Shown: in pieces, positions 19,961 through 45,739 of the stretch
Numbering within the stretch: the first letter of the stretch is position 1
Layout of the letters: every line of letters begins with the position of its first letter
Program-made: the position numbers and the translations under genes
Notes under the pieces: model-generated
Told to the model about the DNA's origin: nothing
What the model saw: only the letters and a program-made list of their open reading frames with translations
Databases searched by the model: none
NCBI GenBank assembly: GCA_017305665.1
Contig: JAFKKH010000022.1
Coordinates: forward strand, 124,001 to 188,000
DNA from: Hyphomicrobiales bacterium
GTDB taxonomy: Bacteria; Pseudomonadota; Alphaproteobacteria; Rhizobiales; Xanthobacteraceae
Length of the DNA: 64,000 nt
Reading direction: 5' to 3'

Positions 19961-21556
19961 ATGACCGACGACGACGCCGCGAGCCGCAAGCCCGAAAACC
20001 TTCGCTTCCGCTGGCTGATGATGGGCGGACTCATCGTGATGCTGCTGGCGGCGTTGCCGCTTGCGGTGTGGCTCGACCTCTCGAGCCTCGGTGAGACCGC
20101 GCTGCGGCGGCAGGCCGCCGATCTCAATTCGGTGATCTCGAGCGTTCGCGCCTACTATGGCAGCAACGTGGTCGGCCGGGTGCTGGCGGCACACGGCAAG
20201 GAGACCCAGGTCGTTCACAACTATGAGGACATTCCCGGCGCGATCCCGATCCCGGCGACGCTGTCGCTCGAACTCGGCAAGGTGATCAGCGAACAGCAGC
20301 ACAACATCACCTATCGCTTCGTCTCGGACTATCCGTTCAAGAACCGCGCGCCGCACCCGCTCGACGCATTCGAGAAGGATGCGCTGAAGTCGCTGCGCGC
20401 CGATCCCAAGCAGAAAATCGTCCAGGCCAGGCGGTCGCTGTTCAGTGACGACGTGCGTCTGGTCGCCCCGATCATGATGGGAGCGGCCTGCGTGAGCTGC
20501 CACAATACGCATCCCGAAAGCCAGAAGCGCGACTGGAAGGTGGGCGACGTTCGCGGCATTCAGGAGGTCGAGATCACGCAGCCGATCGCGGCGAACCTGT
20601 TCTCGTTCAAGTTCCTGCTGGCCTATTTCGCGCTGGCGGCGATTTGTGGCGTCTCGTTCCTGGCGGTGCAGCGCCGTCAGGCCCGGCAGATCGCGGGCAT
20701 GAATCGCGAACTGGAATCGGCCAACGAGTTTCTCGCCGGCCTCTCCATGAAGATTTCGCGCTATATCTCGCCGCAGATCTACAAAAGTATCTTCAGCGGG
20801 CAGCGTGACGTCGCGATCCACACCGAGCGCAAGAAGCTGACGATCTTCTTTTCCGACATCCAGAATTTCACCGCGACCACCGAGCGGCTGCAGCCCGAGC
20901 AGATCACCCAGCTCCTGAACGAGTATTTCACCGAGATGTCGGCGATCGCCCATCAATACGGCGGCACCATCGACAAGTTCATCGGCGACGCCATGCTGAT
21001 CTTCTTCGGGGATCCCGAGACCAAGGGGGAGAAGGCCGATGCGCAGGCCTGCGTGCGCATGGCCTGGGACATGCAGCGTCGTCTGGTCGAACTCAACGCG
21101 AAATGGCGCGCCGCCGGCATCGAGCAGCCGTTCCGCGCCCGCATGGGCATCAATTCCGGATACTGCAACGTCGGCAATTTCGGCAGCACCGACCGCATGG
21201 ACTACACGATCATCGGCGCCGAGGCCAATCTCGCCGCGCGGCTGCAGGCGGTCGCCGAGCCCGGCGGCATCGTGCTGTCGTTCGAGACGTTTGCGCTGGT
21301 GCGCGACGCGGTGGAGGCCGATCCGCTGCCGCCGATCACCATGAAGGGCATCAGCCGCGACGTGGTGCCCTATGCCGTGACCCGCCTGATCGATGCCGAT
21401 GCCGAGCGCGACGGCGTGGTGATCGAGCGCATGGCGGGGCTGGATATCTTCCTCGATCCGGCGATGGTCGATATGCGCGATACCGAGCGGGTGCGGTCGA
21501 TCCTCGCGAGCGCGCTCGCCGCGCTGGAGCATCGTTTGCCGAAAGCGGCGACGTAG
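19961..21556 (+). CDS. Membrane adenylate/guanylate cyclase with periplasmic c-haem (DUF3365/Tll0287-like) sensor
   Basis: 531 residues. Helix 1 is at about 17-38, the periplasmic domain 40-212, helix 2 at about 216-236 and a class III cyclase domain at about 280-430. The sensor is of the DUF3365 type with a CVSCH haem-c attachment motif at 177-181. The cyclase keeps the metal Asp residues (FFSDIQNFT, D299; GDAMLIFFG, D343), Lys339 for purine recognition (TIDKFIGD) and the GAEANLAARL helix with Asn and Arg, so it should be active, more likely on ATP. It may couple periplasmic redox, NO or O2 state to cAMP. Export of the haem domain needs the Ccm system, not seen here. Confidence 0.9.
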   Translation: MTDDDAASRKPENLRFRWLMMGGLIVMLLAALPLAVWLDLSSLGETALRRQAADLNSVISSVRAYYGSNVVGRVLAAHGKETQVVHNYEDIPGAIPIPATLSLELGKVISEQQHNITYRFVSDYPFKNRAPHPLDAFEKDALKSLRADPKQKIVQARRSLFSDDVRLVAPIMMGAACVSCHNTHPESQKRDWKVGDVRGIQEVEITQPIAANLFSFKFLLAYFALAAICGVSFLAVQRRQARQIAGMNRELESANEFLAGLSMKISRYISPQIYKSIFSGQRDVAIHTERKKLTIFFSDIQNFTATTERLQPEQITQLLNEYFTEMSAIAHQYGGTIDKFIGDAMLIFFGDPETKGEKADAQACVRMAWDMQRRLVELNAKWRAAGIEQPFRARMGINSGYCNVGNFGSTDRMDYTIIGAEANLAARLQAVAEPGGIVLSFETFALVRDAVEADPLPPITMKGISRDVVPYAVTRLIDADAERDGVVIERMAGLDIFLDPAMVDMRDTERVRSILASALAALEHRLPKAAT

Positions 21557-26645: not shown

Positions 26646-26831
26646 ATGACCCGGACATCCGATTTCAACGGTAATGACCTGCGCGCGCTGAACGATGCCG
26701 AGCTGGAGCAGGTCTCCGGCGGTATCTATGACGACGGCGGCTGCATCCATCTTCCGACCATCGGCCCGGTCGAGCCGCCGGCGCCGTGGACCTTCAAGGA
26801 CGTGTTCGCGAAGTACACCATCGGCCGCTGA
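26646..26831 (+). CDS. Small peptide 1 with double-glycine secretion leader (bacteriocin-like)
   Basis: 61 residues. Residues 1-26 end LRALNDAELEQVSGG, which fits the class II leader consensus LSxxELxxIxGG cut after Gly-Gly by C39 peptidases. The predicted mature part is 35 residues: it starts IYDDGGCIH, has one Cys, an IGPV motif, a proline-rich PVEPPAP stretch and a basic aromatic end. AAGGGAGAACTGAT gives a good ribosome site for ATG 26646; the ORF in frame upstream has no leader logic. The gene has its own hairpin terminator. No named family recognised; no exporter in the window. Confidence 0.75.
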   Translation: MTRTSDFNGNDLRALNDAELEQVSGGIYDDGGCIHLPTIGPVEPPAPWTFKDVFAKYTIGR

Positions 26832-26854
26832 GCCGATTTGCATCGTTGCATCTG

Positions 26855-26884
26855 AAGAGCTGGCGCTCGCGCCGGCTCTTTTCA
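26855..26884 (+). terminator. Rho-independent terminator after peptide gene 1
   Basis: AAGAGCTGGCG, a CTCG loop, CGCCGGCTCTT, then TTC. The stem is 11 bp with one G-T wobble, followed by a short T run. It is 23 bp after the stop codon, so peptide 1 is a separate transcription unit from peptide 2. Confidence 0.75.
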
Positions 26885-26985
26885 TTGTGCAATACGCGTT
26901 ATCCGCCGTCTCGCAAACGCGCCCGCAAATTTGCGCGCTCCGAATCTTCATTTTTCGTGTCTTCGCGGTTGATGCTGTCCTGTGT

Positions 26986-26999
26986 GTGAGCCGCGTCAC
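26986..26999. promoter_or_regulatory. CRP/FNR-type palindrome upstream of peptide gene 2
   Basis: GTGAGCCGCGTCAC followed by GG, the same GTGA-N6-TCACGG pattern as the site before peptide gene 1. It ends 83 bp before the ATG of peptide 2, against 88 bp for the first. The spacers differ in sequence, so the matched parts are the palindrome arms and the trailing GG. Confidence 0.55.
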
Positions 27000-27082
27000 G
27001 GCGTGGTCCGTCGCAGTCCGGCAAGGCTCCCCGAGCGGCGGTGGAAAAAACCACGCGCCGCATCAACCCAAAGGAGCAAGTC

Positions 27083-27283
27083 ATGACTGAGACCACGAAT
27101 GCCATCCGCGCGCTCAGCGCCGATGAAATCGATACCGTGTCCGGTGGCGCCGAGGCGCATATCGGGCCGGTGAGCGTCTACACTTTCGACAAGGGCTTCA
27201 GCATTCAGGTCGGCGGCGCCGGCATCTGGGTCGGCCCGGCCGGCGTGTCCTGGTGGGCCGGCAGCGCCGGTGGTCACACCTGA
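27083..27283 (+). CDS. Small peptide 2 with double-glycine secretion leader (bacteriocin-like)
   Basis: 66 residues. The leader (22 residues) ends [15 protein letters not shown]. The predicted mature part has 44 residues: [16 protein letters not shown], then a glycine-, alanine- and tryptophan-rich half with GIWVG and GSAGG, both GxxxG motifs as found in two-peptide bacteriocins. It shares leader layout and an IGPV motif with peptide 1. AAAGGAGCAAGTC precedes ATG 27083, and a strong terminator follows. No cysteine, so no thioether or disulfide. Function unknown; secreted antimicrobial, signal or self-recognition peptide are all open. Confidence 0.78.
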
Positions 27284-45574: not shown

Positions 45575-45739
45575 GGTGTGATCTCCCTCACGCAGCGTTG
45601 CTCGCTGTTTAAGGGGTTCGGGCGCGAAGGTCACGTCTTCGTGCCATGCGTGTTTTGGGTGGGGTTATCGCCCGGCTGCCGATGCCTCATTGCCGCCGCC
45701 GTGGTAGGATGCTGTTTGGGCAATAACCCGGAGAATTGA

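Follow-up and report, generated by a model that had tools for sequence, protein, structure and literature searches.

P1 and P2, two small genes in the window (the whole 64-kb stretch of DNA that was analysed), are probably separately transcribed members of a dispersed CRP-type regulon of exported peptides with double-glycine leaders, as judged from their sequence features. Both genes lie on the + strand. P1 (26646..26831) encodes a 61-aa precursor with a 26-aa leader (LRALNDAELEQVSGG) and a 35-aa core, and P2 (27083..27283) encodes a 66-aa precursor with a 22-aa leader and a 44-aa core. The first-pass annotation had reported two such genes, and their ATG starts, ribosome sites (GGGAG/AAAGGAG) and lengths of 61 and 66 codons were verified. 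Double-glycine leaders carry hydrophobic residues at -15, -12, -7 and -4 and Gly-Gly at -2/-1, and the leaders of P1 and P2 alike have all of these. A strict scan of the 64-kb window for such a leader plus a ribosome site returned P1 and P2 as its sole results. The separate terminators claimed earlier were also borne out, each gene being followed on the + strand by one terminator-like hairpin. That of P1 (26854..26881) has a folding energy of -20.3 kcal/mol (z -3.6) and a similar stem-loop sequence in the nearest relative, and that of P2 (27338..27369), identified by folding energy, reaches -22.5 kcal/mol (z -4.6). A simple terminator scan, which needs five T in eight bases, detected no terminator, and a sigma-70 consensus scan detected no promoter. 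Scanning P1 and P2 against Pfam gave one match, below the cut-off. Eight Nitrobacter peptides were scanned against NCBIfam, and curated family names for them were dropped because every match fell below its cut-off. No plasmid match was found for P2 or the C8-type peptide.

Upstream of each gene we found a CRP-type palindrome on the + strand. The site of P1 (26543..26558, CGTGA-TTTCGG-TCACG) matches the consensus at 8/10 positions and is centred 95 bp before the start codon; the site of P2 (26985..27000, TGTGA-GCCGCG-TCACG) matches at 9/10 and is centred 90 bp before the start codon. Putative -10 hexamers follow on the same strand, CAAAGT for P1 (26580..26585) and CAAGGC for P2 (27022..27027), each with an A (26581 and 27023, respectively) 38 bases from the start of its site. 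Alignment of the genome of the window (G000) with that of the same-genus Nitrobacter sp. 62-13 (G002) showed that the P2 palindrome is kept and that TGTGA-CCCAGA-TCACA stands at the aligned place 5' of P1. A further 9/10 palindrome, TGTGATCTCCCTCACG, lies at 45577-45592 of the window, and the composite rule described below joins no gene to it.

The motif was first seen upstream of P1 and P2 and of the P1 relative in G003, and the rest were then tested for it. A TGTGA-N6-TCACA-like palindrome was present in 32/32 first-gene promoters, with its centre 60-110 bp ahead of the start codon; 25 of these promoters are from Nitrobacter, and seven were added later, six of them from other genera. All 31 genes in the set that was read had a palindrome of at least 8/10 within 400 bp: in 25 first genes it lay at -61 to -109, and in six second genes it lay before the preceding gene. 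By comparison, random 400-mers reach 8/10 in 5.7% of cases, and the palindrome occurred in the matched interval of 2/66 other upstream regions, which belong to mechanically called ORFs of at least 150 codons with a ribosome-site-like motif rather than to checked genes. Neighbouring intervals of the 25 promoters contained 0-1 palindromes, but 5/25 had one at -160 to -110. A blind scan of 1024 five-mers with 13 spacers placed TGTGA-N6 at the top (32/32). Among genes outside motif discovery, sites at -77 to -88 were found in 5/5 read in G480 (from nine leader matches) and in one of one each in G506, G078 and G003:C106; G480_5, an eighth added peptide outside the count of seven, has its site at -85. 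We also read 22 leader matches outside the genus in which no palindrome stood at peptide distance, three in G054/G079 and 19 in other families. Glycine-rich, zipper-like Gly-Gly peptides (among L162-L184) were observed in other families of the order, with no CRP-type site at peptide distance.

The position of the palindrome relative to the putative -10 element was nearly invariant. An A lay exactly 38 bases from the palindrome start in 30/32 promoters (23/25 and 7/7), orthologous and hence not independent promoters being included, and the next best A column reached 32%. In G000 alone, the A was present in 11/11. The rest of the putative -10 is weak, with T at -12 in 15/32 and T at -7 in 14/32. 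Class II CRP-dependent promoters have TGTGA-N6-TCACA centred at -41.5. Reading the A as position -11 would place the palindrome centre at -41.5, which fits this geometry, the transcription start being predicted from that A. A composite rule, which asks for the site, the A at +38, a ribosome site and an ATG, was applied to both strands of ~324 kb and gave 18 matches, of which 15 are Gly-Gly peptides, one is the exporter operon and two are something else. One known L013 peptide, which lacks the A, was missed, and since the scanned DNA had been selected for its peptides and exporters, the result measures specificity rather than a genome-wide count. At C44, one palindrome (L026:9045-9060) lies between divergent peptide genes, with an A at +38 on both sides.

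P1 and P2 stand side by side and in the same order in G002, with 85% identity for P1 and 85-86% for P2, so that a relative retains the leaders as well as the cores; a lack of conserved leaders would have spoken against the earlier reading. The genes flanking P1 and P2 in G000 are absent beside the G002 pair, and the G002 flanks match the window near 12-20 kb and 33-36 kb. Comparison with G002 gave dN 0.077 and dS 0.503 for P1 (dN/dS ~0.15), dN 0.121 and dS 0.829 for P2 (dN/dS ~0.15), and dN 0.041 and dS 0.662 for the P2 core (dN/dS 0.06); P1 and P2 are under purifying selection. Nine other peptide pairs were compared, three of which, all G002/G003, showed no amino-acid change in the core, while the core dN of the less conserved pairs rose to 0.37. 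G003 has a relative of P1 located within a peptide cluster, and P2 had no match there at E 0.001. A scan of genome contigs for P2, which reaches close relatives only and possibly left out the window's own genome, confirmed 1/68 pattern stretches, the Nitrobacter sp. 62-13 record.

These results bear on the earlier proposal that P1 and P2 form a dedicated pair. If the two peptides together made up a class IIb-like bacteriocin, they would pair helices through GxxxG stretches in the target membrane. The adjacency and equal order of the genes in two genomes would suit such a pair, as would the GxxxG in P2 and a resemblance between P1 and the curated cerein 7B/lactobin A model, which is below the cut-off (16.3 bits versus 21.5) and does not extend to P2, which was unlisted. 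However, where a class IIb pair would share one operon, P1 and P2 have separate activator-type sites, -10 positions and hairpins, and at least 11 further genes of the leader type lie elsewhere in the genome. The IGPV motif said to be shared is indeed present in both G000 cores, but it is not a conserved common motif because LGPI stands in its place in P1 of the nearest relative, and it was dropped as such. In G003 a P1-like gene occurs without any P2 match at E 0.001, the P1-P2 gap contains no conserved immunity-like ORF by eye in the G000/G002 alignment, and the P2 core was modelled, with moderate confidence, as four beta strands instead of a GxxxG helix. We consider the two-peptide reading very improbable and dropped it in favour of separately transcribed members of a dispersed set.

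The size of this set was estimated by leader-profile searches and locus reading, which identified at least 13 Gly-Gly-leader peptide genes at eight places in G000: P1 and P2, four at C44, three at two places at C15, and one each at C36, C8, C7 and C47. The C7 and C47 peptides are weak leader matches, and the C47 leader ends in Gly-Ala; one further weak match, C8:62527 (E 0.046), is outside the count of 13. Profile A3, built from 20 leaders, has L-12, [ILV]-7, [VI]-4 and GG in 20/20 and [ILVM]-15 in 19/20, the Gly-Ala-ending members (C47, G002 L073 and G078) being kept outside it. Between peptide genes at L026:9626-10078 and L013:8777-9304 we observed an ORF of 150-175 aa, similar in G000 and G003, which had no Pfam match at E 0.1 and is a candidate partner or immunity gene.

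Leader matches and the exporter occurred together within the genus. At E 0.1, leader matches numbered 11 in G000, 12 in G002 and 11 in G003 and 0-1 in the other six of the nine genus genomes, and a C39 domain of more than 100 bits was found in G000, G002 and G003 alone; the chance of this co-occurrence would be 1 in 84 if the genomes were independent. The G002 count is the fairest, since just one of the 15 rows of profile A2 came from G002 (ten from G000 and four from G003). G002 and G004 are 89% complete, and among the 36 genus leader matches, five were unread and one (in G004) is no peptide gene. G005, which is without a >100-bit exporter, contains a C8-type relic whose core has lost 27 residues internally (L051, G005:C1:1067680) and whose upstream site is still 9/10. 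Across 149 family genomes, a C39 domain of more than 100 bits was present in 14, leader matches at E 0.01 in six, and both in four; therefore, most C39 exporters of the family probably serve something other than these peptides. The 11 family exporters checked were 25-46% identical to that of G000. G078, a 95%-complete draft, has a peptide with a site, yet the list of 24 genomes that have a C39 match at E 1e-15 does not include it.

The C39-peptidase ABC exporter and HlyD-type partner to which the first-pass annotation had pointed were both found in the genome that carries the leaders, together with a TolC-family protein. PF03412 gave two matches in G000, at C3 (123 bits) and at C36, and only the C3 match keeps the catalytic Cys, its absence at C36 being judged by eye. 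The C3 match, located on a contig other than that of P1 and P2, is a C39-ABC exporter of 721 aa in which Cys25, His98 and Asp114 are present. The spacing of these residues equals that of the CvaB catalytic triad, Cys32/His105/Asp121 (PMC9746304). The operon at C3 encodes, in order, a 513-aa 2Fe-2S protein (L003:7193-8734), HlyD and the exporter, and the first gene overlaps the HlyD gene by 4 bases. The 2Fe-2S domain scored 35 bits, above the cut-off, and the N-terminus of this protein is weakly cytochrome-b558-like (17 bits versus a cut-off of 96). Its unassigned C-terminus may resemble anti-sigma-factor periplasmic domains. G002 and G003 keep this order of three genes, and the encoded proteins are 83-84% (2Fe-2S protein), 91% (HlyD) and 94% (ABC) identical. 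The TolC-family protein, at C8, matched TIGR01844 with 322 bits against a cut-off of 225, so that the genome has both the adaptor and the channel found in class II microcin systems. An 8/10 palindrome precedes the exporter operon at -87 in G000, -84 in G002 and -84 in G003. The A at +38 is present only in G000 and is absent in G002 and G003, and the idea that the exporter promoter follows class II geometry in all three was therefore dropped. At L034/L045 (G005) and L039/L047 (G002), two C39 matches stand in tandem within long open reading frames (903 and 916 aa).

To identify a candidate regulator, we turned to the Crp HTH family, which has 11 matches in G000; seven of these, Crp/Fnr-type proteins, were read, and the remaining four, below the cut-off, were unread. 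Among the seven, only the 224-aa protein at C6 (C6 Crp) has an R-E-x-x-x-R helix (ARESVNR), and an R-E-x-x-x-R recognition helix fits TGTGA. C6 Crp has a presumed cAMP pocket, judged from its residues. C6 Crp is 90-94% identical in six other genus genomes, four of which lack the peptide set, and it had no match at E 1e-40 in G005 and G006. If it is the right regulator, C6 Crp is a general regulator recruited for the peptide set. Its occurrence in genomes without peptides, the number of Crp HTH matches and the 2Fe-2S protein with a weakly cytochrome-b558-like N-terminus that opens the exporter operon would all agree with a palindrome read by another Crp/Fnr-family protein, such as a redox or NO sensor, rather than by a cAMP-type Crp. 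The restriction of the R-E-x-x-x-R helix to C6 among the proteins read argues against this, and we regard another reader as somewhat unlikely. At 19961-21556 of the window, ~5 kb before P1, a Tll0287-like domain fused to an adenylate/guanylate cyclase domain was noted.

Taken as a regulon, the set would work as follows. A Crp-family activator, most likely C6 Crp, would bind the palindrome and recruit RNA polymerase; the leaders would be cut after Gly-Gly by the C39 ABC exporter at C3, and the cores would exit via HlyD and the TolC-family channel. Peptides and exporter are probably switched on jointly, because the exporter operon bears a weaker copy of the site. The 2Fe-2S protein opening that operon may link peptide release to the respiratory state. 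It is possible, and we put this forward tentatively, that Nitrobacter and some relatives control a peptide secretome spread over the whole genome as a single regulon, in which at least 12 mostly unlike secreted cores have their export tag, their exporter and a class II CRP promoter plan in common; a single cyclic-nucleotide or redox signal would then release a mixed cocktail whose members can be gained or lost singly. The leader, combined with a palindrome at constant spacing, gives a rule for finding secreted peptides that searches for a nearby exporter miss, and it yields the testable claim that nitrite-oxidising bacteria emit a co-regulated peptide set. If this is true, one deletion, of crp or of the C39 exporter, would silence or block the entire set, and its role in nitrifying communities would therefore be directly testable.

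Outside the producer, other cells are the most likely target of the cores, which is a guess; among the roles considered, antagonism is ranked first, at slightly less than even odds, before signalling and then a surface or structural function. The cores differ widely by eye. The P2 structure model contains four strands, with pLDDT of ~80 in residues 31-60 and a mean of 68.8, and the strands of the core begin every 8 residues, so that the modelled core can be read as a meander. When PDB and viral libraries were searched with the model, no fold reached E 0.001, and P1 gave no confident fold. The strands of P2 with their 8-residue spacing, and several other cores that are beta-rich by eye, would agree with peptides that form a surface or matrix layer through extracellular assembly of short beta-rich cores; other members are, however, helical, Pro-rich or glycine-zipper-like by eye, and with P1 lacking a confident fold and P2 a fold match, such a layer is improbable. 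No immunity gene was recognised for the peptides, immunity proteins being difficult to spot. Conserved cores, such as those of the three unchanged G002/G003 pairs, without recognised immunity genes would suit CRP-controlled signals (pheromones) rather than toxins. Signalling is nevertheless rather unlikely, since an unsystematic look recognised no receptor gene adjoining the peptides, the member sets differ among species as they do in arsenals, and thirteen distinct precursors are many for signals.

Among the literature matches listed, none tied a class II CRP promoter to Gly-Gly peptides, and none described dispersed CRP-switched peptides together with their exporter. Known systems share parts of the arrangement. 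Class II microcins (MccV and kin; PMC9746304, PMC13174018) are alike in their small double-glycine-leader precursors and in their export machinery, for which G000 has all three parts: the C39 exporter, the HlyD-type adaptor and the TolC-family protein. In contrast, the Nitrobacter precursors and exporter are on different contigs, lack a recognised immunity gene and have a common CRP-type promoter plan. The Caulobacter contact-dependent bacteriocin CdzC/CdzD (PMC5380434, accessible part) likewise consists of alphaproteobacterial small proteins secreted via a type I system, but, differently from the Nitrobacter set, it is encoded in a single cluster that includes the exporter and an immunity gene, CdzI, and glycine-zipper proteins serve as the toxins; "CRP" has 0 occurrences in the accessible text. 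Cyanobacterial bacteriocin clusters also combine a C39 exporter and HlyD with short precursors; in the part of PMC3140520 that was available they are mostly clustered, with a common activator site unmentioned, and lanM genes distant from other genes are reported. The exporter PCAT1 (4ry2) and the Nitrobacter exporter align over residues 20-703 (E 8.8e-89), and its substrate CtA is a weak match to profile A5 that is not significant (E 0.68). Unlike PCAT1, the Nitrobacter exporter adjoins an HlyD gene, and its putative substrates are many and unlinked.
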